64,000 bases of DNA from NCBI RefSeq assembly GCF_016907335.1, contig NZ_JAFBBT010000001.1:682001-746000 (forward strand), given 5' to 3'. This document shows, in pieces, positions 41,900 to 61,504 of the stretch. The position numbers were made by a program, and so were the translations under genes. Below the pieces are notes generated by a model that had not been told where the DNA came from, searched no databases, and saw nothing but the letters and a program-made list of their open reading frames with translations. Numbering within the stretch: position 1 is the first letter of the stretch; each line of letters opens with the position of its first letter. The DNA comes from Curtobacterium herbarum. GTDB lineage: Bacteria > Actinomycetota > Actinomycetes > Actinomycetales > Microbacteriaceae.

Positions 41900-41925
41900 C
41901 CGGTGAGTAATCGGCTAACGGACGG
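41900..41925 (-). repeat. Cassette-array dyad, copy 1
   Basis: Core TTAGCCGATTACTCAC (read on the minus strand) between CCG and CGG. Its TAG is the stop codon of the adjacent minus-strand gene (ends SVR-stop). Confidence 0.7.
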
Positions 41926-42436
41926 AGCTGGCAGGGGTGCCGTCTTCCCACATCAGTGCTGTTGCCTGCTCCTCGTGGATGAGCAGGTCGCGGATCAGGG
42001 GCGCGTTCTCGACGGGGCAGGACAGGGCGATGAGGTTCTCCGAGATCGCGTCGACGAGACACCCGCGCTGGGCGTAGCGTCCTGCGATCGACCGCCACGC
42101 CGCGGCGAGGTCCGGATCTTCGCCGAGCCAGAGTCGGAAGGTGGCCTGGTTGCCGTGCTCGCTGACGCTCGTTGCCACGAGCGATCCTTCCGCGGATCTG
42201 ACGGTGGCTACTGTGTCGTCGTAGTTCACGCCGTACACCCATGCGGGTACTGCACGAACCTGCACCAGGTCCGGCCCGATCGTCTTTGCGTTCAACGCTT
42301 CCCAGAACACGTCACCAGAGTCGGAGGGAAGCGCGAACCAGACTTCAGTGTCCGCGTCGGACGCCGATTGCGTCGGCACAAGCGAAGATCCCGCCCATTC
42401 GGCCGTCCGACTGGGGTGCTGCCGGTACTCGCTCAT
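41915..42436 (-). CDS. Hypothetical protein, DUF4265-like
   Basis: This 173-residue cytosolic protein has TEVWFALPSDSGDVFWEALNAKTIG followed by VQVRAVPAWVYGVNYDDTV, which resembles DUF4265 proteins; the match is by eye only. The C-terminal half is mixed alpha/beta with LIRDLLIHEEQATALMWEDG. A TAGATT box ends 6 nt before the ATG. The gene is bounded by dyad copies 1 and 2 and takes its stop codon from copy 1. No function can be given. Confidence 0.55.
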   Translation of the reverse strand: MSEYRQHPSRTAEWAGSSLVPTQSASDADTEVWFALPSDSGDVFWEALNAKTIGPDLVQVRAVPAWVYGVNYDDTVATVRSAEGSLVATSVSEHGNQATFRLWLGEDPDLAAAWRSIAGRYAQRGCLVDAISENLIALSCPVENAPLIRDLLIHEEQATALMWEDGTPASSVR

Positions 42437-42506
42437 GGCGGCAATCTAGCCTCGCCATGCACCCGACCGCACTCGGTTTCGGTCGACGACACCGCCCGAC
42501 CTCGAG

Positions 42507-42530
42507 CCCGGTTGACGATCGGCTACCGGG
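42507..42530 (-). repeat. Cassette-array dyad, copy 2
   Basis: Core GTAGCCGATCGTCAAC (minus strand) between perfect arms CCCG and CGGG. Between two minus-strand genes. Confidence 0.7.
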
Positions 42531-42588
42531 CGAAGGACGCCAGCTTCATCGGGAGACGCAGTGTGCTTGGTGCTGGATCAGGTTCCAC

Positions 42589-43428
42589 TCAAGCGTTGTT
42601 GCTCATCAGGGCTTCCTCGTGCTGGACGAACCCGTCGGGCGCATCTGTTGACAGCCGGCCAGCGATCGTCGCGGCGAGGAGCGCGGCGAGGAAGGGCACG
42701 AGCGTAATCGCGGAGGAGACCGCCGCCTTGACTGAGAAGGCGAGCTGGGTTCCGTACACGCCGGTCGACAGCGGGAACACGAGGACCGAGGCCAGGACCG
42801 GCAGGAGCAGCAGCGACCAGGTCCAACCCGGCCGACGGAGGACGACGAGCCAGACAGCGAGCCATGCACCCGTGATGATGCCCAGAGAGAGTGCGGGGTG
42901 CACCGGCGGGTTGAAGAACCCGGTCTGGATCGACCACCACAGAGCCGTCACGGCCAGGACGAACAGCGCACCCATCGCCCGGCGGCGGATCGGCGCCCCG
43001 GTGACGAGGAGGACACTCGCGCTCACGGCGAGCCCGGGCACCACGGTGAGGACGATCGAGATCAGCAGGACCACCGGGACGCCGCCCGCGAGCCCGTTGT
43101 AGCGCTGCACGAGCCCGAGTCCCAGGCCCCCGGCCAGGAAGGACACCGCGGCGAGGACCAGGAGGACCGGGATCGTCGGGATCGTGTGCGGTGTGCTGCG
43201 GACGGAGCCGGGCATCGTGGTCATGGTGTTCCCCCAGGTGGATCGGTGGCCGGCGCGTCGGTGGAAGAGCGCCGTGGTGAGTGCGCCGAACGCGACAGCG
43301 GTCGGCGAGAGGTCGAGCTCGTGTGCGTCACGGACGTCGGCGAGCCACTGCTCGTGTCGGGGGGCACGCTGCTCCAGCGGCGAGGCGGCGACGGCAGCGG
43401 AGACGAGCAGCCGGTCGAGCGCGCTCAC
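42589..43428 (-). CDS. Polytopic membrane protein
   Basis: This 279-residue protein has a cytosolic N-terminal 60 residues (ALDRLLVSAAVAASPLEQRAPRHEQWLADV) resembling the helical prefix of PadR-linked membrane proteins, then about seven membrane helices. The GTG overlaps the stop of the PadR gene (GTGA), so the two are translationally coupled and PadR probably senses or regulates the membrane product. No transport motif was recognised. Confidence 0.65.
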   Translation of the reverse strand: MSALDRLLVSAAVAASPLEQRAPRHEQWLADVRDAHELDLSPTAVAFGALTTALFHRRAGHRSTWGNTMTTMPGSVRSTPHTIPTIPVLLVLAAVSFLAGGLGLGLVQRYNGLAGGVPVVLLISIVLTVVPGLAVSASVLLVTGAPIRRRAMGALFVLAVTALWWSIQTGFFNPPVHPALSLGIITGAWLAVWLVVLRRPGWTWSLLLLPVLASVLVFPLSTGVYGTQLAFSVKAAVSSAITLVPFLAALLAATIAGRLSTDAPDGFVQHEEALMSNNA

Positions 43429-43763
43429 TGGGCCACCGGCCGGTGCGTCGGACGGGCGGTCCCCGCAGTGCGTGCCGCAGCACGGGCCGCATCCCCGCGG
43501 GCCCGCACCAGTTCGCGCGCAGCCACCGCGCCGTCGGCCGTGAACTCGTGGAGTCGTCGCCGTGGACCGGAGCGGTCAGCGTCGTCATCCCACGAGGAAC
43601 GCGTCCAGCCCTGTTGCTCCAGGCGCTCCAGGATCGGGTACACGGTGCCGGCCGGTCGGCCGGTCGCCTTGATGACGAGCAGCCCCCAGGTCGGTCCGTC
43701 GCTCGCGAGCAGTGCATCGAGCACCTCGAGCGTGGGAGCGGTCACGCGTCTGATCGGGTCCAT
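43425..43763 (-). CDS. PadR family transcriptional regulator
   Basis: This 112-residue winged-helix protein has VLDALLASDGPTWGLLVIKATGRPAGTVYPILERLEQQGW, then the wing and a short C-terminal helix. The PadR-membrane protein pair is a common bacterial module for envelope or drug stress. The promoter is unusually clear, and a CTATATAG palindrome in its spacer suggests autoregulation. Confidence 0.85.
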   Translation of the reverse strand: MDPIRRVTAPTLEVLDALLASDGPTWGLLVIKATGRPAGTVYPILERLEQQGWTRSSWDDDADRSGPRRRLHEFTADGAVAARELVRARGDAARAAARTAGTARPTHRPVAQ

Positions 43764-43769
43764 CCCCTG

Positions 43770-43798
43770 AATCTACCTATATAGTACAAGAAGGTCAA
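43770..43798 (-). promoter_or_regulatory. padR promoter with palindromic spacer
   Basis: On the minus strand: -35 TTGACC (43793-43798), 17-bp spacer containing CTATATAG (43777-43784), -10 TAGATT (43770-43775). The predicted start of transcription falls on the ATG, giving a leaderless mRNA. Confidence 0.65.
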
Positions 43799-43828
43799 GG
43801 GCCTGTAGCAAGCTTCTGTGGTGGGCGT

Positions 43829-43850
43829 CCGGTCGACCATGGTCTACCGG
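43829..43850 (-). repeat. Cassette-array dyad, copy 3 (variant centre)
   Basis: Core GTAGACCATGGTCGAC (minus strand) between CCG and CGG. The usual central palindrome CCGATCGG is replaced by another palindrome, ACCATGGT. Confidence 0.55.
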
Positions 43851-43879
43851 GCGGGTCGAGCGTGCAATCGCACCTCCGA

Positions 43880-44707
43880 CTAGGGCTTCGCCCCGTTCCC
43901 GAACGACCCGTGCAGCGTCGTCCCCGCGAACGCAGTTCCGTCGATCACCCCGTGTACCCGAGCGAGCGTGGCGTCGTCCGCCGGGGAGACCCCGATCGTC
44001 AGCGAGCCGTAGTCGATGCGCATCGTCTGCGGAATGCTCGCCTCGAGTCCGGTCACGCCCGGAGTGGAGGCGAGCGTGGCCAGTCCGGACGCGACACCGA
44101 GGGCGGTTTCGTCAGGGATCTGCTGGTCGAACGTGCCCGAGTAGGTGACGGAGGAGAGGACGTGTCCCGGCCCGGCCGGCACCTGCAGCGTGAGGGTGAC
44201 ACCGGTCCAGGCGATCCGCTCCGCCATCGCGACCGGGACCGCCGCCGCTTCCGACGGGGTTGCGTCCGGGTCCATCGTGACCACGAAAGCGCTCGAGAAC
44301 GAGTGCGTCTCGGTCGCACCGGCCGGGGGTGTGGGACGAGCGGAGGGCGTGGGCACCGGCGGGAGCATGGGATCGTCCTGGGAGACACCGCCGATCGGCG
44401 GCGGTGCAGCCGGGCCGGCGTCGCGGTTGTTCCATGCGTCGAGGCCAGGGGGCGTGACGTCCGTTCCGTCGGCGGCGGTGTAGCGCTGGTGCAGCTCGAT
44501 CCGGTTCGCCGCGCTCGCGACGCCGGGGCTGGCCTGCACGGTGCGGAGTGCGTCGTGGAGGGTGGACGCGACCTGCGGGTCCAGCTGCGGGACCGCCGCC
44601 GCTGTCGTGGCGGAGGAGGCCGTGTCTCCCTGCCCGGCCGCGCACCCCGTGACCGAGACGAGCGTGATCACGAGGGCTGCGGTGACGGCGGCGGTTCGCT
44701 GGAGCAT
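43880..44707 (-). CDS. Hypothetical lipoprotein
   Basis: This 275-residue exported protein has a hydrophobic signal and lipobox VTGC with Cys22. A Pro-rich linker (about 100-125) divides two domains; the second has IAWTGVTLTLQVPAGPGHVLSS and IPQTMRIDYGSLTIGV, beta-rich. No known family was recognised. It is a single-gene unit between dyad copies 3 and 4. Confidence 0.65.
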   Translation of the reverse strand: MLQRTAAVTAALVITLVSVTGCAAGQGDTASSATTAAAVPQLDPQVASTLHDALRTVQASPGVASAANRIELHQRYTAADGTDVTPPGLDAWNNRDAGPAAPPPIGGVSQDDPMLPPVPTPSARPTPPAGATETHSFSSAFVVTMDPDATPSEAAAVPVAMAERIAWTGVTLTLQVPAGPGHVLSSVTYSGTFDQQIPDETALGVASGLATLASTPGVTGLEASIPQTMRIDYGSLTIGVSPADDATLARVHGVIDGTAFAGTTLHGSFGNGAKP

Positions 44708-45005
44708 CCTCCGACCGTACGGGCACGGACGACCCGACGCATCGACCGTTCGGCACAGCTGGTGTGAGACGGTGCCCGGCCGGACACGACCAAGTCCGGC
44801 GAAGCACCGTCTCCATAGGCGATCGGTGGGCGGTGCGTGCGAGCACGCACCTCTTCCCCGGCTGGTACCCCGTGGTTACCGTGGTCACATGGACTGCTTC
44901 GCGAGCTGGCGCACTCGCAACTGAAGGGACGGCTCTGGCCGTCGCCCTCCTCCACCCCGGCCCCGGGTGTGGAGCCTTCAGACTGCTCACGAAAGAAGCA
45001 CAACC
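44708..45005. other. Intergenic stretch holding dyad copy 4
   Basis: About 300 bp between divergent genes. It contains a degenerate array dyad (44804-44836) and an imperfect GTGCGTGCGAGCACGCAC palindrome at 44833-44850. No gene is seen. Confidence 0.45.
44804..44836 (+). repeat. Cassette-array dyad, copy 4 (degenerate)
   Basis: Core-like ATAGGCGATCGGTGGG (44815-44830) within wider arms GCACCG and CGGTGC. Least certain copy. Confidence 0.35.
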
Positions 45006-45482
45006 ATGCACATCCGCGACTGCACATCGCTCGACCTCCCCGCGCTCACCGCACTCACGATCGAGACCTTCCGGCCCCTCCTCGCCGGCTCCCTCGTACA
45101 GCTACGGGCCGAAGTCACCGCGCACGACCACGGGCACTGGGAAGACGACTACCGCCACGAGGTCCCGTCTCTGCTCGCTCCAGACGAGGGCCGCTTCATC
45201 ACACTCGCGGAAGAACATGGCACACCGCTCGGCTACGTCGGCTGGAACACCACCGGTGCGACGTCCGGACGACTGGAGATGGTTGCCGTTCACCCTGACG
45301 CTCGTCGGCAAGGGGTCGCGCGAGCGCTCTGCTTGGCGGCGCTGACCAGGCTCGGAGAGCTTGGGGTCACCGTGGTGCACATCGGAACGGGCGGCGACGA
45401 GTTCCACGCCCCGGCACGAGCCCTCTACGAATCCCTCGGCTTCATCCCGTACCCGACCGTCGACTACGCCCGGACGCTCTGA
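45006..45482 (+). CDS. GNAT family N-acetyltransferase
   Basis: This 158-residue protein has the GNAT order: IRDCTSLDLPALTAL strand/helix, then GRLEMVAVHPDARRQGVARALCLAAL, the acetyl-CoA pyrophosphate loop (RRQGVA). RALYESLGFIPYPTVDYARTL closes the fold, as in aminoglycoside-type or unknown small-molecule acetyltransferases. The ATG at 45006 gives a family-sized protein. It is a single-gene unit between dyad copies 4 and 5 with its own terminator. Confidence 0.85.
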   Translation: MHIRDCTSLDLPALTALTIETFRPLLAGSLVQLRAEVTAHDHGHWEDDYRHEVPSLLAPDEGRFITLAEEHGTPLGYVGWNTTGATSGRLEMVAVHPDARRQGVARALCLAALTRLGELGVTVVHIGTGGDEFHAPARALYESLGFIPYPTVDYARTL

Positions 45483-45487
45483 TCGGA

Positions 45488-45520
45488 GCCGGGAGGGCTA
45501 CCGAGCGCAGCCCTCCCGGC
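45488..45520. terminator. 12-bp perfect hairpin after GNAT
   Basis: GCCGGGAGGGCT pairs with AGCCCTCCCGGC around a 9-nt loop, 6 bp after the stop. Confidence 0.7.
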
Positions 45521-45545
45521 CTGATGAACTGCACCTGACGGCGTC

Positions 45546-45567
45546 TCGATAGCCGATCGTCAACCGA
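45546..45567 (+). repeat. Cassette-array dyad, copy 5
   Basis: Core ATAGCCGATCGTCAAC between TCG and CGA, placed between two convergent gene ends. Confidence 0.65.
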
Positions 45568-45592
45568 ACGTGCTGCTGCCGCGGATCGGCGG

Positions 45593-46219
45593 TCAGTCAA
45601 AGGAGCTGAGCGCCTCCGCGTACTTTTCGGCAGTATCTCGTGTCTCTGCGGTGACGAGGAGAGCGTGTGCGCCGATGCGTCGGGTGAATGATCCGTGGCA
45701 CGGGATGACGATGATCTTGGTGAGCCCTGCGCGCCACGCGGGCACGAGCTGCTCGAGGCTCTCCCGCTCCGGGCTTCGTGTCGTGCGCGGCGATGTACGT
45801 TCCTGGAACAGGGTGCTGTTCCACACGTCGTATTCGTCGGTGAACGCTGCGTCGCCGAACCAGTCCTGCCAGGACGGCCCGACAAGCTGAGCGAGTAGCT
45901 CTTTCCGCTCCTGCGAAGCGAGCGGCGAAGACTGCAGCCGATCGAACAGGAGCGGGTCTCGTTCTTCGCCAGCATGAGCCACGCATGCGCGCCAGATCTC
46001 GGGACAGGAGCTCGCCCAGGCTTCGACCTGCGAGTCGTTGAACGCGGGTTCCTGCGCCGGAGTTGCAACCAAGCGCGGTGGTAGGTCCTCCCCGATCGGG
46101 TCGAGTCTCCAGGCCTCACGAATCCAGAGCAGATCGAGCAACGCGTGCACGTCGTCCTCGATCGTGATCCGCATGTCGTGAGGCCAGGGATTCCCCGGCA
46201 TCGGGTCAGTCGTGAACAC
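45593..46219 (-). CDS. Hypothetical protein
   Basis: This 208-residue soluble protein is unrecognised. It has DVHALLDLLWIREAWRLDP near the N-terminus, a charged helical middle, and a C-terminal TKIIVIPCHGSFTRRIGAHALLVTAETRDTAEKYAEAL that suggests an alpha/beta domain. The GTG at 46219 is chosen for its strong upstream GGAGG; longer frames lack one. A single-gene unit between dyad copies 5 and 6. Confidence 0.6.
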   Translation of the reverse strand: MFTTDPMPGNPWPHDMRITIEDDVHALLDLLWIREAWRLDPIGEDLPPRLVATPAQEPAFNDSQVEAWASSCPEIWRACVAHAGEERDPLLFDRLQSSPLASQERKELLAQLVGPSWQDWFGDAAFTDEYDVWNSTLFQERTSPRTTRSPERESLEQLVPAWRAGLTKIIVIPCHGSFTRRIGAHALLVTAETRDTAEKYAEALSSFD

Positions 46220-46356
46220 GCGACCTCCTTCGCTCGTGTTCAGCGAAGCACTCAAGTGCCGAGCGGGCAACCGCCGTCGTGATCACCATCAGAAGAACGG
46301 CCGAGCAGCAACGGTCGAGACACGTCGGCGAATCACCTTCGCCACGGGTGGTAGGT

Positions 46357-46386
46357 ACGTCCGGTAGCAAGTCGTTCAACGGACGT
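46357..46386 (+). repeat. Cassette-array dyad, copy 6
   Basis: Core GTAGCAAGTCGTTCAA between perfect 7-bp arms ACGTCCG and CGGACGT. The rest of 46220-46482 holds nothing recognisable. Confidence 0.6.
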
Positions 46387-46482
46387 GCTTGTTCGAAGCT
46401 GCCAGGCGGGGACCCTCGATGGTTCTGGTCCCGGGTGGGGCTCCGCTCTCGGACGCCTACGTCTGAGAGCGGAGCTGAGGAT

Positions 46483-47067
46483 TTAGCGGTTGGGGTGCGC
46501 TTGTCGGTTGACGCAGCGGTAGACGGTTGCGCGTCCGATGCCGAACAGCTCGGCGAGTTCGGCGACCGAGTGCGTGCCAGCTTCGTGGACCTCGAGGAGA
46601 TGGCGTTGTTGCGCGGGGCTGAGTTTGGGTTGCCGGCCGCGGAGGTGGCCTTTCGCTTTCGCGATCTGCATTCCTTCGCGCGTTCGGGCGCGGATGAGGT
46701 CGGACTCGAACTCGGCCACCATCGCGAGGACGTTGAACAGCAGACGGCCGACGGGGTCGTTCGGGTCGTGGACGGAGCCGCCGATGTTGAGCTTGACGTT
46801 CTTGGCGGTGAGTTCGTCGACGATGTCCTTCGCGTCGCGGAGGCTTCGTGCGAGCCGGTCGAGCTTGGCGATGACGAGTGTGTCCCCGTCACGACAGGAG
46901 GCAAGCGCTTCGCGCAGCCCTGGTCGTGATCTGTTCGTGCCAGTCAGGCCATGATCGGTGTGGATGTTGGGCGGGAGGACTCCAAGCCGTTCCAGCGCGA
47001 CGCGCTGGGCGGTGAGGTCCTGTTCGTAGGTTGAGACGCGGGCGTACCCGATGAGTAGAGCGGTCAT
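46483..47067 (-). CDS. Serine recombinase (resolvase/invertase family)
   Basis: This 194-residue recombinase has catalytic Ser12 in GYARVSTYEQD, then LVIAKLDRLARSLRD (active-site Arg), the long E-helix AMVAEFESDLIRARTREGM and a C-terminal Hin-like HTH (HSVAELAELFGIGRATVYRCV). It is complete and of normal length. The ATG at 47067 starts directly at the catalytic domain. No transposase adjoins it, and it sits inside the dyad array, so it could be a lone invertase, a transposon remnant, or relevant to array rearrangement. Confidence 0.9.
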   Translation of the reverse strand: MTALLIGYARVSTYEQDLTAQRVALERLGVLPPNIHTDHGLTGTNRSRPGLREALASCRDGDTLVIAKLDRLARSLRDAKDIVDELTAKNVKLNIGGSVHDPNDPVGRLLFNVLAMVAEFESDLIRARTREGMQIAKAKGHLRGRQPKLSPAQQRHLLEVHEAGTHSVAELAELFGIGRATVYRCVNRQAHPNR

Positions 47068-47172
47068 GGCGCGAGGATCCGCCGACTTCCCGAGTCCGCC
47101 TCGTCTCGCACCGCGATCGGCCACCGGACAGCGGGCAGCTACTCCTCACTGCCATCACGTCGACCTGGTTGG

Positions 47173-47403
47173 ATGGAGTCCATGTGGATCCCCGGACTCA
47201 TTGCCGGGCCGGCAATCGTGGCGGTAGCGGTCACCGCGTTCGTGCGTCCGGCACCGATCGCGCAGTACTTCGTCGACGCCCAGCAGGGCAGCCGCGGTCC
47301 GCAGACTGCGATGACCCCGGGACTCGTCCGTGTGCTCGCTGTAGGGCTGGCAATGATCGGCATCGTCTGGACACTCCTGTCTATCTTCGGTCCCCCCGAG
47401 TGA
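47173..47403 (+). CDS. Small two-helix membrane protein
   Basis: This 76-residue protein has an N-terminal helix IPGLIAGPAIVAVAVTAFV, a short polar loop and a second helix VRVLAVGLAMIGIVWTLLSIF. No family was recognised. A start at 47182 (preceded by GGAG) is equally possible. It overlaps the 3' end of the convergent kinase frame by 23 nt because that frame has run past its expected stop. Confidence 0.5.
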   Translation: MESMWIPGLIAGPAIVAVAVTAFVRPAPIAQYFVDAQQGSRGPQTAMTPGLVRVLAVGLAMIGIVWTLLSIFGPPE

Positions 47404-48019
47404 TCGGAGAGTCGAAGGCGCGACCAAACGGAGTCCGGTAGCCGATCGGCCAGCGGACGCTGCTGTCGATGGCGACCTGTTCGAGGATCGTCCGCACCGT
47501 TTGTTCACCAGTGAGGTCGGCGCTGTCGATCCACTGTCCTTGATCGCCGAAGCCGGCTCGCATGGTTGCGTCAAGTTCGGAGTAGCCGTCGAAGTCGAAC
47601 TGCTCGTCGGCGCTCCGTGCGGCATTGCGGTCGCGGCAGGCTGCTTCGCCGGGAGCGAGGACGACCAGTCGTGCGCGCTGCTGTGGGAGCTGCCGGAGGA
47701 GGCGATCGAGATTGTCCCGTCCGGGGAGGACGCAGTCGATGATGGTCGTGAAACCGCTCGCCGTGAAGTTGTGCGCGAGCGCGCCGATGTTGCGGTAGCA
47801 GAGTTCGACTTGTCGTTCTGCTTCGTCGGCGGGGTGACCGAGTGGCCAGACCGCGCCGGAGACGATCATCGCGTTGAGGTCGTCGGCGCCGATCCGCACG
47901 GCACGAGGGAGCGCTGCAGCAAGGGCACGGCTCACCGTCGACTTTCCAGCGCCCGGCATACCGGTCACGACCCAAGCCACCGCTGCGCTCGTCGAGAGGT
48001 CGACGGCTCCGTCAAGCAT
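47381..48019 (-). CDS. P-loop kinase/phosphotransferase with read-through tail
   Basis: This 212-residue AAA_33-type protein has Walker A VVTGMPGAGKSTVSRAL and a lid region FTTIIDCVLPGRDNLDRLL, like small-molecule kinases. The natural end is probably SSVR, inside dyad copy 7, where the other copies give a stop; here the codon is TGG, so the frame continues 20 residues (WPIGYRTPFG and on). The ATG at 48019 overlaps the esterase stop, indicating a two-gene operon. The substrate is unknown. Confidence 0.7.
   Translation of the reverse strand: MLDGAVDLSTSAAVAWVVTGMPGAGKSTVSRALAAALPRAVRIGADDLNAMIVSGAVWPLGHPADEAERQVELCYRNIGALAHNFTASGFTTIIDCVLPGRDNLDRLLRQLPQQRARLVVLAPGEAACRDRNAARSADEQFDFDGYSELDATMRAGFGDQGQWIDSADLTGEQTVRTILEQVAIDSSVRWPIGYRTPFGRAFDSPITRGDRR
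47433..47458 (+). repeat. Cassette-array dyad, copy 7
   Basis: Core GTAGCCGATCGGCCAG between perfect arms GTCCG and CGGAC. It lies within the read-through tail of the kinase gene. Confidence 0.75.
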
Positions 48020-48869
48020 CGGTGTGATCCTCCGCCCAGAGCCACCGCAGCGCATCGGGAAGTAATACCCCGCCGTGGTTCGGGGAGTGCGACCCGTCGC
48101 CGACGACGAGCCGGAAGTCATAGCCAGCTCTCGCGAGCGCGGACGCGGTGTCGAGGCTCTCGGCGAACCAGTTCCACGCTCGCTCGTTCCAGTGGAGGTC
48201 TCTGTGCGCAGCATGCAGGAACACGCGGGTGGGTCGCGGTGCTTCGGCCGCGAGGAGCTCGGGGTAGGGGTTTCCGCCCGGCATCTGCGCGAAGCTCGGG
48301 TTGAATGCGATGACCCTCCCGAACCCGTCAGGGCGAGTCCATGCTGCTGTCAGGGCGGCATTGCCGCCGCTACTGCCGCCGCAGATGCCACGGTTCATCG
48401 GTTCAGCCGAAACGCCGTAGCGAGACTCGACCTCTGGTAGGACTTCCTCCAGCAGGAAGCTCGCGTAGGTGTCATCAAACGCGTCGTACTCGGCATTGCG
48501 GTGCTTCGTCGGTACGCCGTCGACGTTCACCACTCCGGGGTCGACGAACACGCCGATCATCTGCGGAAGGACGCCGTCCGCGGCGAGGTTGTCCAGCACG
48601 GTCCCCCCTCGGACCGCGCCGTCTGGATCGAGGTACCACCAGCCGTCATTGAAGACCATGACCGCGCTTGCAGCATCAGCGAGATGTCCTGCGGGGCGAT
48701 GGACCCAGACCTTCCGGGAAGTCCCCGGGTACCGTTCGCTCGAGCCGAGGTGGAGTTCCTCAATCGTGCCGGCAGGGACGTCAGGTCGGATCGCTGAGTC
48801 GGGTCCGTACTCGTACGAGACGTCCCGCTGCCCGATCGGGAGAGCGGCGAACGGCACTGTCGGAGACAC
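48012..48869 (-). CDS. Putative esterase (Fes/esterase-D-like alpha/beta hydrolase)
   Basis: This 285-residue alpha/beta-hydrolase has SRKVWVHRPAGH at the family start, MVFNDGWWYLD, nucleophile elbow ICGGSSGGNAAL and catalytic His in GDGSHSPNHGG. The form resembles PF00756 esterases that cleave enterobactin, carotenoid or acyl esters. The GTG start is family-consistent. It shares an 8-nt overlap with the kinase, suggesting joint action, and lies between dyad copies 7 and 8. Confidence 0.82.
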   Translation of the reverse strand: MSPTVPFAALPIGQRDVSYEYGPDSAIRPDVPAGTIEELHLGSSERYPGTSRKVWVHRPAGHLADAASAVMVFNDGWWYLDPDGAVRGGTVLDNLAADGVLPQMIGVFVDPGVVNVDGVPTKHRNAEYDAFDDTYASFLLEEVLPEVESRYGVSAEPMNRGICGGSSGGNAALTAAWTRPDGFGRVIAFNPSFAQMPGGNPYPELLAAEAPRPTRVFLHAAHRDLHWNERAWNWFAESLDTASALARAGYDFRLVVGDGSHSPNHGGVLLPDALRWLWAEDHTDA

Positions 48870-48920
48870 GACCCGACTCTAACGACCAACCTCACGAGCA
48901 GACAGGCGCCGTCACACTCC

Positions 48921-48948
48921 GTGCCGGTAGCGGATTGGTCATCGGACG
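48921..48948 (+). repeat. Cassette-array dyad, copy 8
   Basis: Core GTAGCGGATTGGTCAT between CCG and CGG. On its minus strand it gives GTCCGATGA, the VR-stop of the adjacent GNAT gene. Confidence 0.65.
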
Positions 48949-49436
48949 AGCCGCACTGTTGTTCCGATCGGGCCGAAACTGGAGATGGCACCGTCGGCGA
49001 TGAAGCCGTTTCGTCGGTAGAACGAGTGAGCGCGCGGGTTGTCGGCCGCGACCCACAGTGACGCCGGCCGTTCGCCGAGCACAGCGTCCAGTAGCGCTTG
49101 ACCTGTTCCGCTCCCGTGCGCGTGCTCGAGCACATAGAGCATGCTCAGCTCCTCGGGCCGGACGGCGGCCGGTTCTTCCGCGGTGGCCTGGACAGCGGCG
49201 AACCCGATCATGCCCACCTCTTCGATGGCGACCACCGCTGTGAAGGTCTGGTCTTCCAGGTTCGATGACCACATGCTGACGCGCCGGTCGACGTCGAACC
49301 AGGGGTTGGTGTCGGGGTCGTCCACGAACCGCCCGTAGGTTTCGCGCCAGGAAGCGGCGTGCAGGCGGGCAATGCTCGCCGCGTCATCGATGGTTGCCGC
49401 CCGGATCACGGCGGTAGCTGAACCACGCTCTCCCAT
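48939..49436 (-). CDS. GNAT family N-acetyltransferase
   Basis: This 165-residue protein has VIRAATIDDAASIARLHAASWRETY, LSMLYVLEHAHGSGTGQALLDAVL (acetyl-CoA loop HGSGTG) and ADNPRAHSFYRRNGFI, the three usual GNAT blocks. The ATG at 49436 has TACGGT 6 nt upstream; longer frames run through dyad copy 9. The stop lies in dyad copy 8. The substrate is unknown. Confidence 0.85.
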   Translation of the reverse strand: MGERGSATAVIRAATIDDAASIARLHAASWRETYGRFVDDPDTNPWFDVDRRVSMWSSNLEDQTFTAVVAIEEVGMIGFAAVQATAEEPAAVRPEELSMLYVLEHAHGSGTGQALLDAVLGERPASLWVAADNPRAHSFYRRNGFIADGAISSFGPIGTTVRLVR

Positions 49437-49499
49437 GTCCTGACCGTACCGATCGACGTGGCGGGATGGGTCATAGAGCTCCTGACAGCCGGCGCCCTG

Positions 49500-49526
49500 T
49501 CGCGGTAGCCGATCGGTCACCGGGCG
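49500..49526 (+). repeat. Cassette-array dyad, copy 9
   Basis: Core GTAGCCGATCGGTCAC, weak arms. Sits between two divergent GNAT genes. Confidence 0.65.
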
Positions 49527-49549
49527 TGGCTCCCTGGAAGGATGACAGC

Positions 49550-50119
49550 GTGCGCATCTCTCCTTGGCCTGCTCAAAGCGGGGCTCTCCTCCTCCGCGAC
49601 CCTCGGCCCGAGGAAGCGGACCAGGTCGTCGCCCTGCGGAACAACCCCGTCGTCAACCGGTTCATGCTTCGCACACACGTCGACCCGGATGCCTACGCCA
49701 GAGAGTGGGCGAGCATCCCCGACAGTGACACTGACTTCTCGTGCGTCGCTGAGCTGAACGGCCAGCTCGCCGGCCTGGGGTTCCTCGACGTCACCGACGG
49801 CCTGGGGCAACCAGGAATGCCCCAAGGCACGCAGGGCGTCATCGGCTACATGCTCCAACCCGACCTCGCCGGACGAGGACTGGGAACGGACCTGGCCCGC
49901 GGGCTCCTGGCCGCAGCATTCGACGCGCTCCAGCTCCGGCGTGTCACAGCAAGCTGCAACGCAGACAACATCGCCTCCGCCCGCGTCCTGGAAAAGAACG
50001 GCATGCGACGCGAGCAGCACGGCGTCGGGGATTCCTGGCACGCCGACCTGGGATGGGTCGACGGCTACCAGTACGCCATGCTCGATCGCGAGTGGGCCGT
50101 CGCTCGAACCGTCCGATAG
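49550..50119 (+). CDS. GNAT family N-acetyltransferase (RimJ/RimL type)
   Basis: This 189-residue protein has LLLRDPRPEEADQVVALRNNPVVNRFM at the start, then GVIGYMLQPDLAGRGLGTDLARGLLAAAF (acetyl-CoA loop) and VTASCNADNIASARVLEKNGMRRE, typical of RimJ/RimL-like acetyltransferases. The GTG at 49550 is preceded by AAGGA. The stop TAG (50117-50119) is inside dyad copy 10, reading TVR-stop. Confidence 0.85.
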   Translation: MRISPWPAQSGALLLRDPRPEEADQVVALRNNPVVNRFMLRTHVDPDAYAREWASIPDSDTDFSCVAELNGQLAGLGFLDVTDGLGQPGMPQGTQGVIGYMLQPDLAGRGLGTDLARGLLAAAFDALQLRRVTASCNADNIASARVLEKNGMRREQHGVGDSWHADLGWVDGYQYAMLDREWAVARTVR

Positions 50120-50138: not shown

Positions 50139-50143
50139 GGCGA

Positions 50144-50186: not shown

Positions 50187-50193
50187 TTCTTGT

Positions 50194-50747: not shown

Positions 50748-50763
50748 GGTGGTGTCTTCGGAC

Positions 50764-53487: not shown

Positions 53488-53531
53488 CCGGCACCCGCGC
53501 ACCCGACACCATCCAGTGCGCGCCCTGAACC

Positions 53532-53594: not shown

Positions 53595-53632
53595 CCACAC
53601 CCGCACGACCAACCCGAAAGGCGACAACCGCC

Positions 53633-55884: not shown

Positions 55885-55891
55885 TGATTGT
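55877..55891. promoter_or_regulatory. 15-bp perfect palindrome over the LysR start codon
   Basis: ACAATCA-T-TGATTGT. LysR binding here would block its own translation start region and transcription. TTGATTG half-sites fit LysR boxes. Confidence 0.55.
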
Positions 55892-55947
55892 GCCCTGCCA
55901 AGAGGTTCCGGGTACCGCCAGAGGCAGGATTCGCGCAGGCTTGGCCC

Positions 55948-57114
55948 ATGACAACGCTCCGCACGGACCCTGCACCCGCGAACGGTAGCCAGCTGCCCCA
56001 ACGGCCGCAGACGGCGTTGTTCCGTGACCTGGAGCGGCCAGGCCTGATCGTGTCGAATCTCACACCGAACTGGTTCGCGTCGATCATGGGCACGGGGATC
56101 GTCGCTGTCGCAGCTGCGTCACTGCCGCTGCAGTTCCCCGGGCTGCGCCTCGCGGCGACGGTCGTGTGGGCGATCGCCGCGGTGCTCCTCGTCGCCCTCA
56201 CGACCGCGACGGTGCTGCACTGGATCCGCTACCGGAGCACTGCAGCCGGGCACCAGCTCAACCCGGTGATCTCGCACTTCTACGGCGCACCACCGATGGC
56301 GTTCCTCACCGTCGGCGCCGGGACACTCCTGCTCGGCAAGGACTGGGTCGGCCTGCCCGCCGCCGTCACCATCGACTGGGTCCTGTGGACCATCGGCACC
56401 ATCGGAGGACTGCTCACGGCAGTGCTCGTGCCGTACCTGGCGTTCACCCGCCACGAGAACAAGCCCGACTCCGCGTTCGGCGGCTGGCTGATGCCGATCG
56501 TCCCGCCGATGGTGTCCGCCTCCACCGGTGCGCTCCTGCTGCCGTACGCCCCCGCCGGGCAGGCGCGGGAGACGCTGCTGTGGTCCTGCTACGGCTTCTT
56601 CGGCCTCAGCCTCATCACGTCGCTGGTCGTGATCACGCTGATCTGGAACCGTCTCGCGCAGCACAAGGTCGGGGCCGCCGGCATGGTCCCGACTCTGTGG
56701 ATCGTCCTCGGGCCGGTCGGACAGTCGATCACCGCGGTGAACCTCCTCGCATCGAACGCCCCCACCGTTGTCGATGCGAGTACCGCGCATGCCCTGCTGG
56801 TCGTGGCGCTGGTGTACGGGTTCGCGATGCTCGGCTTCGCGCTGCTGTGGACCGTCATCGCCCTCGCGATCACCATCCGCACTGCCCGCGAACACTTGCC
56901 GTTCAGCCTGACTTGGTGGTCCTTCACGTTCCCCGTCGGGACCTGCGTCACCGGCCTGAACGGGCTCGCCCTGCACTCAGGCCTGACCGTCGTTGCCGTC
57001 CTCGCCGTCATCTACTACGCCGGCCTCGTCGCCGCATGGATCACCGTTGCCCTTCGCACCTTTCACGGATCCGTCATCCGTGGCACCCTGCTGGCACCGC
57101 CACAGCCGGCATGA
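55948..57114 (+). CDS. TehA/SLAC1-type (TDT family) anion transporter
   Basis: This 388-residue protein with ten predicted helices starts ERPGLIVSNLTPNWFASIMGTGIVAVAAASLP, typical of TDT transporters, and contains HFYGAPPMAFLTVGAG and FSLTWWSFTFPVGTCVTGLNGLA. Relatives carry malate, sulfite or tellurite-linked anions, or form chloride/nitrate channels (SLAC1). In this cargo it may move fluoride or another small anion, which is an inference. Start ATG 55948; it overlaps the UDG-like gene by 4 nt. Confidence 0.83.
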   Translation: MTTLRTDPAPANGSQLPQRPQTALFRDLERPGLIVSNLTPNWFASIMGTGIVAVAAASLPLQFPGLRLAATVVWAIAAVLLVALTTATVLHWIRYRSTAAGHQLNPVISHFYGAPPMAFLTVGAGTLLLGKDWVGLPAAVTIDWVLWTIGTIGGLLTAVLVPYLAFTRHENKPDSAFGGWLMPIVPPMVSASTGALLLPYAPAGQARETLLWSCYGFFGLSLITSLVVITLIWNRLAQHKVGAAGMVPTLWIVLGPVGQSITAVNLLASNAPTVVDASTAHALLVVALVYGFAMLGFALLWTVIALAITIRTAREHLPFSLTWWSFTFPVGTCVTGLNGLALHSGLTVVAVLAVIYYAGLVAAWITVALRTFHGSVIRGTLLAPPQPA

Positions 57115-57683
57115 GTACCCCCGAGGAACTCGCTGACGTTCGATCGCTGAACGGTCTCGCGGAGACGTGGCGGACCGCGCCCGACGGCAGCCGACGGTTC
57201 GTCCCGAGCTTCGACCCACGATCCGGCGGCAGATTCAGCCGTGTCCTGGTCCTGATGCAGTCGCCTGGCCCCCAGACCATCGCCGCAGCGCACGCAGCGA
57301 TCTGCAGCGAGGACAACCCGGGCCCGACCGCGGCCGCGTTCCGAGCAGCCCGTATCGAGTCCGGACTCGCACGCGGCGAGTACGTCCGCTGGAACCTTGT
57401 CCCATGGGAACTGCCCGACCGCGTGCGACTCGAGGACATCGACGAGGGGCGGCATGCCCTCGCCACACTGCTCGCGGCCCTCCCCGCTCTCACTGCGATC
57501 GTCACGTACGGGGCCGTTGCCCTCGACGGCGTCATGCGACACTTCACCCTGGACGAGCACCCCCGACTCCTTCCGGTCATCGCAGCACCACATCCGTCTC
57601 CCGCCAACGGCCGCCACCGATCGGAACAACACCTCCGTTCCGTGCAAGCACTCCGGCTCGCCGCGCGAGCGCGGCAGACGTAA
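57111..57683 (+). CDS. Uracil-DNA glycosylase superfamily protein
   Basis: This 190-residue UDG-like domain has RVLVLMQSPGPQTIAAAH, SEDNPGPTAAAFRAARIESGL, YVRWNLVPWEL and a C-terminal VIAAPHPSPANG, which mirrors the His loop of family 4/5-like UDGs. Catalytic details differ from classic Ung, so activity is uncertain. The ATG overlaps the transporter stop (ATGA), so both are made together. It is the last cargo gene before the recombination region. Confidence 0.7.
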   Translation: MSTPEELADVRSLNGLAETWRTAPDGSRRFVPSFDPRSGGRFSRVLVLMQSPGPQTIAAAHAAICSEDNPGPTAAAFRAARIESGLARGEYVRWNLVPWELPDRVRLEDIDEGRHALATLLAALPALTAIVTYGAVALDGVMRHFTLDEHPRLLPVIAAPHPSPANGRHRSEQHLRSVQALRLAARARQT

Positions 57684-57823
57684 CAAATACGAACGATTCC
57701 GCTACAACTATCCGTACCGGCGCTCAGTCCGGGTGCGAGGCGCCGTGTCTTGTAGCGGAACCCAGTCCCAGAATCTACGTGCCGCCACTACCCCTCCTGG
57801 TCGAGTTTCGCTACGTTCTCTTC
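57684..57823. other. Candidate res recombination site
   Basis: TTCCGCTACAA (57697-57707) and TTGTAGCGGAA (57750-57760) form a perfect 11-bp inverted repeat, and a related TTTCGCTACGTT lies at 57806-57817. The position directly before a serine resolvase fits a res site with several subsites. TACGTT (57812-57817) also serves as a -10. Confidence 0.6.
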
Positions 57824-58426
57824 ATGGGTCACCTTCTCGGGTATGCGCGCGTGTCCACCACAGACCAGGACGCGTCGCTGCAGATCGACGCGCTCAACGC
57901 CGCTGGCTGCTACCGCGTGTTCGTCGACACCATGTCCGGGTCGCTCCAACACCGGCCCGAGCTCGACAAGCTCCTCGACCAGCTCCGCCCCGGCGACACT
58001 CTCGTCGTCTGGCGACTCGACCGGCTCGGCCGGTCCATCCGGCACCTCATCGATCAGCTGCACGCTCTCGCCGAGCGCGGCATCGGGTTCCGGTCCCTGC
58101 AGGAGACCATCGACACCACCTCGCCCGGCGGCCGGCTCGTGTTCCACGTCTTCGCCGCGTTGGCGGAGTTCGAACGGGACCTCATCAAGGAACGCACCAA
58201 CGCCGGCCTCGCCGCCGCTCGAGCCCGCGGCCGCACCGGCGGCCGACCATCTCGGCTCTCCGCGGACCAGGTGCGCACCGCACGCCGGCTCTACGAACAG
58301 CAGGACATGACCGTCGCGCAGATCGGCGACGTGCTCGGCGTTAGCCGCACCACCATCTACCGTGCACTCGCGAAGCACGCCGAGCCCGTCGCGGCGCGAC
58401 GAACCAAGCCTTCCCCAACGATGTAG
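57824..58426 (+). CDS. tnpR: Transposon resolvase (serine recombinase)
   Basis: This 200-residue resolvase has catalytic Ser11 in LLGYARVSTTDQD, VVWRLDRLGRSIRHL with catalytic Arg, the dimer helix AALAEFERDLIKERTNAGL and a C-terminal HTH (MTVAQIGDVLGVSRTTIYRAL). It should resolve cointegrates at the adjacent res region. The ATG is 6 nt after TACGTT. The transposase follows 6 bp downstream. Confidence 0.92.
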   Translation: MGHLLGYARVSTTDQDASLQIDALNAAGCYRVFVDTMSGSLQHRPELDKLLDQLRPGDTLVVWRLDRLGRSIRHLIDQLHALAERGIGFRSLQETIDTTSPGGRLVFHVFAALAEFERDLIKERTNAGLAAARARGRTGGRPSRLSADQVRTARRLYEQQDMTVAQIGDVLGVSRTTIYRALAKHAEPVAARRTKPSPTM

Positions 58427-58432
58427 CTGGCT

Positions 58433-59836
58433 ATGGACGCGAGCGAGCGGTGGGGCATCCTTCGACTGCACGTCGAGGACGCCATCCCGCTCGCCACCCT
58501 GGCCCGCACCACGGGCGTCGCTGAGCGCACCCTGCAACGCTGGTTGGCCCGCTACCGAACCGGCGGATACCCGGCTCTCGCCGACGGCACCCGCACCGAT
58601 CACGGCGCCCGACGGACGGCACCGGAACTGGTGCGCCTGATTGAGGGGCTCGCACTCACCAAGCCACGACCTTCGATCGCCACGATTCACCGCCAGGTCG
58701 ACAATTACTGCACCAAACGAGGTCTCTCAGCGCCGTCGTACTCCGTTGTGCGGTCGATCGTGAACGGGCTTGATCCCGGGATGGTGACGCTCGCGCTTGA
58801 GGGGCCCGCGTCATATCGGGACAAGCACGAACTGCTGCTCCGACGTCGTGCGGATCGCCCCAACGCGATCTGGCAGGCGGACCACACGATGCTCGATCTG
58901 CTCATCGTCGGACCCGACGGCAAGCCCGAACGGCCGTGGTTGACGGTGATCCTCGACGACTACTCCCGCGCGGTCTGCGGGTACATGGTGTTCCTCGGCG
59001 CCCCATCCGCCGCGAACACCGCGCTCGCGCTCCGGCAAGCGATCTGGCACAAGCCGGAACCGGACTGGCCTGTCTGCGGGATCCCAGACGTGCTCTACAC
59101 AGACCACGGGTCCGACTTCACCAGCCACCGAATCGGCGACACCGCCGCCGTGCTGCACCTCCGCATCATCCACTCGCAGGTCGCTCGCCCCCAGGGCCGC
59201 GGGAAGATCGAGCGGTTCTTCGGCACCATCAACACCGAGCTGCTCCCAACGCTCCCCGGCCACCTCGCACCCGGATCCTCGGCGCCGGCGCCGACGCCGG
59301 CGCTGGATCTCGCCGGTGTCGACAGTGCCATCAACACGTTCATCCGCCGCTACAACGCCCGCATCCACCGCGAGCTCCGGAAGAGCCCACTGGAAGCGTG
59401 GATCGCAGACGGGTGGCTGCCACGAATGCCGGACTCCCTCGAGCAGCTCGACGGGTTCCTGCTCACCGTCCCGACCACGCGTGTCGTGCAACGAGACGGC
59501 ATCCACTTCGAAGGGCTCCGCTACACCGCAACCACTCTCGCACCCTTCGTGGGCAGCACCGTCAGCGTCCGGTACGACCCCCGCGACGTCACCGAGATCC
59601 GTGTCTTTCACCGCGACGCGTTCCTGTGCACCGCGATCAGTACCGCGCATCAGACCGAGACCATCAGTCTCAAGCAGATCCAGGCCGCCCGGAACGCGCA
59701 ACGAAGAGCCCTGCGCGGGCAGATCCGCGAACGCATCGCGATCGTCCGCCCCACACCCGATGATCACACCCCACCAGCACCCGCACCGGCACCGGATCAA
59801 CCGCGACTGATGACCTACGAGGAGGACCGGTCATGA
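58433..59836 (+). CDS. tniA: DD35E transposase (TniA/Tn552 p480 type)
   Basis: This 467-residue transposase has an N-terminal HTH (IPLATLARTTGVAERTLQRWLARY), a second DNA-binding segment, and the catalytic triad Asp150 (WQADHT), Asp224 (YTDHGSDF) and Glu260 (GRGKIERFF) with exactly 35 residues between the last two. A Mu-type C-terminal beta domain follows. It is the size of Tn552 p480. Its stop overlaps the ATPase start, as in Tn552 and Tn5053. Confidence 0.93.
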   Translation: MDASERWGILRLHVEDAIPLATLARTTGVAERTLQRWLARYRTGGYPALADGTRTDHGARRTAPELVRLIEGLALTKPRPSIATIHRQVDNYCTKRGLSAPSYSVVRSIVNGLDPGMVTLALEGPASYRDKHELLLRRRADRPNAIWQADHTMLDLLIVGPDGKPERPWLTVILDDYSRAVCGYMVFLGAPSAANTALALRQAIWHKPEPDWPVCGIPDVLYTDHGSDFTSHRIGDTAAVLHLRIIHSQVARPQGRGKIERFFGTINTELLPTLPGHLAPGSSAPAPTPALDLAGVDSAINTFIRRYNARIHRELRKSPLEAWIADGWLPRMPDSLEQLDGFLLTVPTTRVVQRDGIHFEGLRYTATTLAPFVGSTVSVRYDPRDVTEIRVFHRDAFLCTAISTAHQTETISLKQIQAARNAQRRALRGQIRERIAIVRPTPDDHTPPAPAPAPDQPRLMTYEEDRS

Positions 59837-60645
59837 CGAGCCAGTTCATCATCACGAAGGAACACCGTCGGTTCGCGGAGTTCGCCGACGCCGTCCGGAA
59901 GCAGAACACCATCGGCGTCTGCTTCGGCCCCGCTGGCGTCGGCAAGACCCTCTCCGCACGCCGCTACGCCCACTGGGACAGCATCGGCCCGTTCATCGCC
60001 AGATGGGCCGCACGCAGCGAAGACGACACGAAGATCTACGCCGCCGCCCACCGAGCCCGCACCGTCTTCTACACGCCCGAGGTCTCCGCCACGATGCGCG
60101 CCCTGCAGGACGACCTCCGGCACGACATGCTCCGCACCGAACGCTGCATCGAGGAACACCTCCTGCTCCAGGGTCGCCACTTCGACCACGCACACGGCCC
60201 CAACCCGTCCCTGCTCGAGCTGATCATCATCGACGAGTCCGAACGCCTCACCGGCAACGCGATCGAGTGGCTCCGCGACCAGTACGACCGCACCGGCATA
60301 GCGATGATCCTCATCGGCATGCCCGGCATCGAGAAGCAGTTCAGCCACTACCCGCAGCTCTACAGCCGCCTCGGTTTCGCCCACCAGTACCGTCCGCTCG
60401 GCCACGACGAGCTGCTCTTCGTCCTCGAACGTCAATGGCGCAAGCTCGGCAAGACGCTCGACCCCGACGACTTCACCGACGCGCAAGCCATCGCCGCCGT
60501 CGAACGCATCACCCGCGGCAACTTCCGGCTCCTTGAGCGCCTCCTCCCTCAGATCCAACGCGTCCTGAAGATCAACGAGCTCGACGTCATCACCAACGAC
60601 GTCGTCGAGGCCGCCCGCAGCACCCTCGTCATCGGCACCACCTGA
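59833..60645 (+). CDS. tniB: Transposition AAA ATPase (TniB/Tn552 p271 type)
   Basis: This 270-residue AAA ATPase has Walker A GPAGVGKT (32-39), Walker B LIIIDE (Asp134/Glu135) and a sensor-type MILIGMPGIEKQF. The C-terminal helical lid resembles MuB/TniB/IstB proteins. It selects targets and activates the transposase. Length equals Tn552 p271. The ATG overlaps the tniA stop, and its own stop is immediately followed by the right inverted repeat. Confidence 0.92.
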   Translation: MTSQFIITKEHRRFAEFADAVRKQNTIGVCFGPAGVGKTLSARRYAHWDSIGPFIARWAARSEDDTKIYAAAHRARTVFYTPEVSATMRALQDDLRHDMLRTERCIEEHLLLQGRHFDHAHGPNPSLLELIIIDESERLTGNAIEWLRDQYDRTGIAMILIGMPGIEKQFSHYPQLYSRLGFAHQYRPLGHDELLFVLERQWRKLGKTLDPDDFTDAQAIAAVERITRGNFRLLERLLPQIQRVLKINELDVITNDVVEAARSTLVIGTT

Positions 60646-60695
60646 CCCGACACCGATCGCAGCGAAAACGACGACACAGAGCGAGGCTGCTCACA
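60646..60695. repeat. Right terminal inverted repeat
   Basis: Reads CCCGACACCGA... to ...GCTGCTCACA; complement of the left end with 9 mismatches in 50. It abuts the tniB stop. Confidence 0.88.
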
Positions 60696-60701
60696 CCCAG
60701 G
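60696..60701. repeat. Target-site duplication, right copy
   Basis: CCCAGG, identical to 50640-50645. Confidence 0.85.
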
Positions 60702-60750
60702 CCAGCCGGAGCTACCCGCCGACTCCTGGGCCCGATTCGGTGTCCGGTAG
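60702..60750 (+). pseudogene. 3' remnant of the interrupted GNAT gene
   Basis: In the restored frame this piece encodes GQPELPADSWARFGVR and then TAG (60748-60750). It is cut off from its 5' part by the transposon and has no start codon. Confidence 0.85.
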
Positions 60751-60770
60751 CCGACCGATCAACGAGACAC
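60740..60770 (+). repeat. Cassette-array dyad, copy 11
   Basis: Core GTAGCCGACCGATCAA between GTGTC and GACAC, the right arm having one bulged base. Provides the stop of the interrupted GNAT. Confidence 0.7.
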
Positions 60771-60813
60771 TGTCGGCCTGTAACGTTCGACGTCGCGCTC
60801 TTATCGTTGGTCG

Positions 60814-61455
60814 ATGGATCTCGATCAAGTCTGGCCCTTGTTCGGGCTGCGCCTCATCACTCCCAGGCTGGAACTGCGCCCCCTGCGCGACGAGGACCTT
60901 CCCGGGCTCGTCGACGTGGCACTGTCGGGTGTGCACGATCCCGCTCGGATGCCGTTCGGTGTTCCGTGGACGGACGCAGAACCGACAACATTGGCGCATT
61001 CTCTCGCGCAGTACCACTGGAAGCTACGGTCCGGAGTGAGCCCTGACTCATGGGGTGTGAGCTTCACCGTGCTCCACCACGGCACGCCGGTCGGCGTCCA
61101 GGAGTTGCATGCTCGCCGCTTCGCCGCGCGCAAGACCGTCGAGAGCGGATCATGGCTTGCCCTCGCGCACCAGGGCAACGGGCTCGGCACCGAGATGCGG
61201 ACGGCATTGCTGCTGTTCTCGTTCGATCACCTAGGAGCGGAGTGGGCGGAGTCGAGCGCAGCCGCTTGGAACGAAGCATCCCTGCGGGTGTCGCAGAAGC
61301 TCGGATATGAGGTCAACGGTGTTAGTCGTGCCCAGACTCGCGCGGATGAGGTTGTCGACGAGGTCAGGGTGCGACTACGGCGGGAGGATTTCGCTAGGCC
61401 GAACTGGAGCCTGACGACTGAAGGGGTCGAAGCAGCTACTGAGTTCTTGATGTAG
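60814..61455 (+). CDS. GNAT family N-acetyltransferase
   Basis: This 213-residue RimJ/RimL-type acetyltransferase has LRLITPRLELRPLRDEDLPGLVDVAL, PVGVQELHARRFAARKTVESGSWLALAHQGNGLGTEM (acetyl-CoA loop QGNGLG) and AAWNEASLRVSQKLGYEVNG. The ATG is 6 nt after TATCGT (60802-60807). It lies between dyad copies 11 and 12; its stop precedes copy 12 by 23 nt. The acceptor is unknown. Confidence 0.86.
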   Translation: MDLDQVWPLFGLRLITPRLELRPLRDEDLPGLVDVALSGVHDPARMPFGVPWTDAEPTTLAHSLAQYHWKLRSGVSPDSWGVSFTVLHHGTPVGVQELHARRFAARKTVESGSWLALAHQGNGLGTEMRTALLLFSFDHLGAEWAESSAAAWNEASLRVSQKLGYEVNGVSRAQTRADEVVDEVRVRLRREDFARPNWSLTTEGVEAATEFLM

Positions 61456-61478
61456 CCGGACGGGCAAAGATCCGGACA

Positions 61479-61504
61479 TCTCGTTAGCCGATCGGCCAAC
61501 GAGA
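61479..61504 (+). repeat. Cassette-array dyad, copy 12
   Basis: Core TTAGCCGATCGGCCAA between perfect TCTCG and CGAGA; with the adjacent TT/AA the arms reach 7 bp. It marks the right edge of the array. Confidence 0.75.

Follow-up and report, generated by a model that had tools for sequence, protein, structure and literature searches.

The window analysed here, a stretch of 64,000 nucleotides from Curtobacterium herbarum (assembly GCF_016907335.1, contig NZ_JAFBBT010000001.1, positions 682,001 to 746,000 of the forward strand; coordinates refer to the window unless the contig is named), contains a run of one- and two-gene units separated by short palindromic dyads, which raises the question of what the dyads do and whether the genes between them move. 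An original prediction, made from the letters alone, had described twelve such dyads between 41900 and 61504, read them as folded elements with covarying arms and likened the layout to integron cassettes. Judging from comparison with related genomes, the interval is probably a mobile gene-cassette array in which the dyad serves as core recombination site, with a small serine recombinase as the presumed catalyst.

The dyad is an imperfect double-stranded palindrome of ~28 bp with a core that is mostly AT; its consensus is about GTYYCGRTAGCCGA on one side of the centre and TCGGYYACCGRGAC on the other, and past about ±14 bp no base stands out. To score sites, a position weight matrix (PWM) was refined by iteration on the window plus 20 loci picked around pattern hits. 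It gave 163 sites of at least 12 bits in 437 kb, Markov-shuffled versions of the sequence giving 3, 3 and 4; because of the way the loci were picked, this density is not genome-wide. Sites of at least 20 bits carry AT at the centre in 195 cases, GT in 25, AC in 4 and CC in 1. Cruder scans yielded little because the arms are imperfect in many copies: a plain pattern with up to two mismatches was mildly enriched in the window (29, against a mean of 20.1), and a search for the strict core with perfect arms returned 13 rows (five array copies and three places elsewhere) against 0–7 in shuffles. The PWM recovered all twelve predicted dyads in place, together with two further copies, c6b at 47104 and c0 at 40757. 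The latter overturns the statement that positions 1 to 41.9 kb hold no copy, as c0, weak as it is, is an exchange border. The copies are as follows; query ranges at c4 and c6b refer to the genus query, window 40385–50200.

40757..40782, minus strand: c0, terminal, central GT, weak (13.0 bits), exchange border with locus L059
41898..41923, minus strand: c1, AT core, 21.1 bits
42506..42531, minus strand: c2, AT core, 31.8 bits, exchange border
43827..43852, minus strand: c3, AT core, centre CCATGG, 22.8 bits, exchange border
44810..44835, plus strand: c4, AT core, weak (13.2 bits), where genus matches stop (query ranges 3464–4442 and 4432–5183)
45544..45569, plus strand: c5, AT core, between two convergent genes
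46359..46384, plus strand: c6, GT core, downstream border of the resolvase cassette
47104..47129, minus strand: c6b, AT core, 17.6 bits, 36 bp upstream of the resolvase start, border (query 5981–6737 and 6731–7066)
47433..47458, plus strand: c7, AT core, 33.5 bits
48922..48947, plus strand: c8, AT core, 22.8 bits
49500..49525, plus strand: c9, AT core, 30.3 bits
50111..50136, plus strand: c10, AT core, with the TAG stop of a GNAT gene inside it
60742..60767, plus strand: c11, core AC (GT on the other strand), 27.5 bits
61479..61504, plus strand: c12, AT core, last copy, 30.6 bits

The predicted covariation of the arms was not borne out. In 131 sites none of 22 mirror-pair tests was significant against permutation (lowest p = 0.069), and in 97 aligned sites the named helix showed 6 pairs with two-sided change against 6.8 in shuffles, the covariation score was 0.165 against 0.157 (77 of 500 shuffles attained it), and two-sided change affected 57 cells against 48.6 (49 of 500 shuffles). 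Nor did folding of the 12 copies as single-stranded DNA (ssDNA) support a folded element, with z ≤ −1.2 in 7 of the 12 and below −3 in one of these, and Rfam gave no match for the dyads at gathering score. RNA or ssDNA structure was rejected on the folding and the two covariation tests; in the absence of covariation the dyads are therefore double-stranded palindromes, not folded RNA or ssDNA, and the differences between arms reflect several letters tolerated per half-site rather than pairing. Copy c3 does have a different central palindrome, as had been proposed, but its central AT is kept and the border still falls at this AT.

A palindrome between genes could also be a repetitive extragenic palindromic (REP)-like element, a bidirectional terminator or an operator, and the placing of the dyads would suit such a role: a coding-like open reading frame (ORF) is present in 192 of 223 units of 250–2500 bp, and its stop codon lies within 30 bp of a centre in 91 of these 192 (its start in 21). 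We regard this explanation as extremely improbable. Dispersal over the genome in the manner of REPs or bacterial interspersed mosaic elements (BIMEs) was not seen, all 9 hits of the model at E ≤ 0.01 in the genome itself falling inside the array, at 724.5–743.5 kb of the 3.52-Mb contig (7 places, some on both strands; up to E 3 there were 28 hits, of which those at E ≤ 0.01 were placed). Moreover, c5 sits between convergent genes and other copies at 5′ ends, units end at the dyad centre elsewhere, and the lack of covariation and of an Rfam match also counts against a terminator or REP. The outcome that the original prediction had named as contrary to it, copies scattered genome-wide with no exchange of units, did not occur.

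The element is widespread in the genus. The pattern KTAGCCGATCGGYCAVC, allowing one mismatch and with palindromic variants scored on both strands, has matches in 60 of 66 Curtobacterium genomes, the reversed control giving mostly 0–2 per genome. A model search of Microbacteriaceae found hits in 40 of 249 genomes and 23 of 78 genera, the own genus included; many of these are single and near threshold, and multi-site clusters beyond the genus occur in g5 and g32. The 56 clusters of at least three sites (337 sites, a few counted twice as loci L054 and L325 overlap by 8 kb) reach 16 sites, with a median spacing of 678 bp.

Whether the units move was assessed by comparing genomes, scoring about four candidates per genus genome with window 40385–50200 as query; the figures cover the matches listed. 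The query is matched by 64 of the 66 genomes, own included. None of the 149 matches listed crosses a copy centre with over 40 bp on each side of it. Of their 298 ends, 88 are no farther than 16 bp from a centre, where chance would give ~4%. Homologues of each unit from the leader (described below) to c10 occur in at least 3 to at least 27 genomes, with identity down to 68% and often in part; for unit c5–c6 (at least 3 genomes among the matches listed) no match end fell at a centre. Comparison of fetched loci between genomes gave 345 ends of high-scoring segment pairs (HSPs), of which 87 come within 16 bp of a centre in one partner or both (against 0.8% for a random position); for 45 this holds in both partners. 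Of the 194 HSPs, 21 begin and end at sites. Inspection of 21 junctions at single-base level showed that 13 reach the centre, and 10 of these 13 stop 1–3 bp beyond it.

Other species contain units 97–99% identical that have other neighbours and whose breakpoints fall at the dyad centre or close to it: c2–c3 is 99.4% identical in genome G025, c1–c2 99.2% in G014, c0–c1 99% in G025 and the resolvase unit c6–c6b 97–98% in G028 and G054. More divergent copies are those of c7–c8 (89.5% in G044 and G033), c9–c10 (89% in G040) and c6b–c7 (88.9% in G036). G035 and G040 hold different cassettes at one place, the immediate flanks being 91–95% identical and the 4.3 and 6.4 kb between them having no blastn match longer than 48 bp. 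Across genera, one of the 30 best matches listed (L317:14521–15103 of g32 against Curtobacterium L326, 88.9%) has both ends 3–4 bp from centres. The units thus recur and are exchanged as blocks with one site per unit, in agreement with the original prediction and with the test it proposed, and the gene-cassette reading of the array is strongly supported by these comparisons. Other species have homologues of the PadR unit (L335, L336, L352, L353, L354, L356 and L357) where the stretch fetched contains no element of at least 13 bits. These suggest that a native gene was captured and are a possible source of cassettes.

Ordinary homologous recombination could also exchange blocks, with the dyads as passive repeats, as they are repeated sequence through which related species can recombine. 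We consider this very improbable: blocks end at or near the dyad centre though the half-sites differ between partners, the neighbours differ on both sides, and imperfect repeats of 26 bp are poor RecA substrates.

If the dyad is a recombination site, which enzyme acts on it? The original prediction had advised a search for a recombinase gene next to a copy, and one lies inside its own interval:

46483..47067, minus strand: R1, small serine recombinase of 194 aa, PF00239 + PF02796, itself a cassette (c6–c6b)

Its matches to Resolvase (PF00239) and HTH_7 (PF02796) exceed the cut-offs, as in small serine recombinases, and the closest solved structures are a DNA-invertase and gamma-delta resolvase (residues 4–184 and 5–188 aligned). 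At 10 loci with R1-type genes, the element stands at −62/−63 in 4 and at +613 or +681 to +688 in 8. One R1 resolvase, 96% identical, was seen at L232, on a contig labelled as a Patulibacter metagenome-assembled genome, with elements at +613 and +1022; it is either contamination or wide transfer.

According to PMC12217951, res is located upstream of the resolvase gene; it covers ~120 bp, is made up of three subsites, and its site I is cleaved at the central 2 bp. The dyad has the ~28-bp length and 2-bp core of such a site I, with an exchange point that comparison places at or near the centre, and it is found in the res position of part of the resolvase genes. Clade 2, a group of Curtobacterium resolvases related to R1, has an element 144–146 bp upstream of the start at 7 of 13 distinct fetched loci; in this sample the site of L175 is also that of a training locus, and a leader match was the reason for fetching several of the loci. 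Outside Curtobacterium, 15 of 71 relatives (drawn from the best 80 of 193 protein hits, with L277 and L296 left out) have a site of at least 13 bits at −160 to −121, compared with 0.26% of 14,126 control windows. In a tree of 97 proteins, made without near-duplicates and with half of the outside relatives, genes with an element at −160 to −121 or −70 to −41 make up 26 of 55 in one clade (its size counted by eye) and 0 of 42 outside it. From Curtobacterium to Arthrobacter, site and gene are separated by similar sequence, which also matches the leader. Tn552-type resolvases, including the one at window 57823, served as negative control and have no element in 400 bp upstream. The dyad resembles the site of crossover (site I) in a single clade of Tn3-type serine resolvases.

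At the loci fetched from other genera a related resolvase is present in 4 of 10; in L311, L315 and L317 it stands with an upstream GT site at what is, within the stretch fetched, the end of the array, and in L312 it has no detectable site. On G043:C2 (56.5 kb) it is the site-I side that carries the sites. No one serine recombinase common to all array-bearing genomes was found among the 66 of the genus.

Alternatively, a tyrosine recombinase might move the cassettes, the host XerC/XerD pair being the likeliest, in the manner of pdif modules, or an unseen integron integrase might do so. Tyrosine recombinases occur in all 7 genomes checked, whereas no PF00239 match exists in 12 of 66, and pdif modules offer a precedent (PMC9501444). 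We nevertheless hold this explanation to be unlikely, as the element occupies the res position of some serine resolvases and some partner sites have little in common beyond the central AT. A tyrosine recombinase needs an overlap of 6–8 bp, for which the central AT is too short. A dif or pdif site has XerC and XerD arms around a 6-bp spacer; the dif of the genus (NGCGCCGATAATGCATATTATGTCAA, in 7 of 8 genomes) is unlike the dyad arms apart from GCCGAT, as compared by eye. A PF00589 search of the genome (E ≤ 0.001) found two genes, taken for putative XerC and XerD, at contig positions 596602 and 1418691; the array is at 722.8–743.5 kb, ~126 kb from the nearer one, and no integron integrase adjoins it, as had been predicted. 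An XerCD/dif origin of the dyads was rejected on the dif comparison and the distance of the PF00589 genes. The canonical dif of the genus was seen at L122–L128, and the C. herbarum genome itself has no match to it within 3 mismatches.

The end of the array at c0 is occupied by a further feature:

40385..40769, minus strand: non-coding res-like leader at the array end, abutting terminal c0, with no resolvase gene beside it here

The leader is matched by 31 of 66 genus genomes at E ≤ 1e-5, most in part only, and the motif TGTCCCGC..GCCCGGTGAAGG is common to the leader and the stretches upstream of resolvases. In an alignment of 5 loci its indels are non-triplet. The possibility that it is a structured RNA was rejected, with an unfavourable RNAalifold covariation term (+4.76) and no Rfam family over cut-off; from its sequence, we explain it as putative res accessory sequence. 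Array ends are also distinguished by GT cores, found at 23 of 81 ends as compared with 15 of 225 internal sites (p = 2e-6), a count in which L054 and L325 again overlap.

We propose that each dyad would present two inverted half-sites of ~13 bp around a 2-bp core, mostly self-complementary AT. A small serine recombinase of Tn3/gamma-delta type, from the clade that includes 46483–47067, would bind the half-sites, make a 2-bp staggered cut and rejoin the ends, so that circular cassettes are inserted or neighbours swapped. Because the AT core is self-complementary, AT cassettes may insert in either orientation, which fits the mixed orientations observed. The ancestor would have been a plasmid-type resolvase with a full res, comprising site I and the accessory region, of which cassettes keep site I only. 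In the least certain step, the GT sites and accessory leader at array ends might form a fence that does not recombine with AT sites and, as a guess, fixes one end of the array as attI does in integrons.

Several observations weigh against this interpretation. The catalyst is inferred and recombination itself was not observed, and canonical resolvases need accessory sites, of which the cassettes show none. Site I of clade 2 has a GT core and most cassette cores are AT, an AT site at −62/−63 being present in 4 of 10 R1 genes. Only some of the 66 genus genomes (at least 10) showed an R1-type gene, and several of the 12 without a PF00239 match have arrays (G004, G022, G033, G035 and G062). No site occupies the res position in 6 of 13 clade-2 genes and 56 of 71 outside relatives, and the loci were partly picked for a leader, site or resolvase hit, which favours both the GT-end and the res-position counts. 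L165, a resolvase outside the clade (start 10650), has a 26.8-bit GT site 270 bp upstream, past the scored window and beside the leader, so the leader is not tied to one resolvase clade. As to the borders, 22 of the 45 ends near a centre in both partners overshoot it by 1–6 bp, 18 by 7–14 bp and 5 fall short, a position that the conserved dyad blurs, and 8 of 21 junctions stop 4–8 bp before the centre.

The cassettes of the window, other than that of R1, contain the following genes.

40798..41697, minus strand: MerR-family regulator, unit c0–c1
41915..42436, minus strand: DUF4265 protein, unit c1–c2
42589..43763, minus strand: PadR-like regulator and a protein without Pfam match, unit c2–c3
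43880..44707, minus strand: gene without Pfam match, unit c3–c4
45006..45482, plus strand: GNAT, unit c4–c5
45593..46270, minus strand: gene without Pfam match, unit c5–c6
47173..47403, plus strand: small ORF, no Pfam match, unit c6b–c7
47381..48869, minus strand: AAA_33 protein and esterase, unit c7–c8
48939..49436, minus strand: GNAT, unit c8–c9
49550..50119, plus strand: GNAT, unit c9–c10
60814..61455, plus strand: GNAT, unit c11–c12

Acetyltransferases recur in the wider set as well: 130 sampled of the 192 coding units gave 18 matches to Acetyltransf_1, 14 to Acetyltransf_3, 7 to Abhydrolase_6 and 2 to Resolvase. PADLOC reported 24 families, most of them single-member, for example TIR/ThsB. 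Against plasmids, the window cassettes match at the resolvase stretch only, with 72–80% identity. Unit c10–c11 contains a transposon of ~10 kb (window 50646–60697) with the resolvase at 57823, a Mu-type transposase and an AAA protein; its cargo, which looks like fluoride resistance, includes Usp and CrcB genes and, by ORF reading, putative enolase, pyrophosphatase and phosphoglycerate-mutase-like genes. Its ends are TGTGGGCAGC and TGTGAGCAGC, with CCCAGG on both sides, and a copy in L061 is 97.5% identical. Directly after the last dyad, before a LacI regulator, window 61540–61800 holds repeated stretches of the GAGACGCCG and GCGTCTCG type.

Beyond the cassette reading itself, we narrowly favour the view that Curtobacterium and some other Microbacteriaceae genera possess a second, independently evolved integron-like platform, which would combine a resolvase-descended serine recombinase, site-I-only AT cassettes, an insulating cap formed by a full res with GT core, and a recombinase able to travel as a cassette. 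If this is true, gene-capture arrays arose more than once, with another class of recombinase, the trade in acetyltransferases, hydrolases and regulators among these bacteria would be explained, and a short, orientation-free recombination site would be available for genetic tools. The central question is whether a resolvase can join site-I-only DNA between molecules. The combination described here was not found in searches of an open-licence library of papers, preprints excluded.

For gene capture in one step, integrons are the textbook platform; their recombinase is of the tyrosine class and their sites are folded. The array is like them in its small one- or two-gene cassettes with sites between, often just after a stop codon, in its GNAT-rich cargo, in turnover at a fixed locus and in that some arrays have a recombinase gene and a special end site. 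It differs from them in that the sites are dsDNA palindromes of ~28 bp, conserved in sequence and without covariation in both site sets, whereas attC folds as a single strand, in that no IntI is near, and in the exchange at a 2-bp centre, the mixed orientations and a candidate enzyme that is a serine recombinase. The usual role of res is the resolution of dimers and cointegrates. The Tn3/gamma-delta resolvase–res system, as described in PMC12217951, shares the enzyme family, a site I dyad cut at its central 2 bp and a res of ~120 bp upstream of the gene, whereas here many isolated copies of site I border genes, in clusters of up to 16 sites. Serine resolvases are also known to exchange DNA modules at res sites (Kholodii 2001, as cited in the available parts of PMC9501444 and PMC12217951); that shuffling concerns the full res of transposons and plasmids, and these cited accounts, as far as they extend, contain no site-I-only cassette arrays. 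The pdif modules of Acinetobacter (PMC9501444) likewise consist of genes with short core sites at their borders and are mobile as modules, but they depend on the tyrosine recombinases XerC/XerD and dif-like sites. We call the array a variant because modules moved by site-specific recombinases are known from integrons, pdif and res shuffling.

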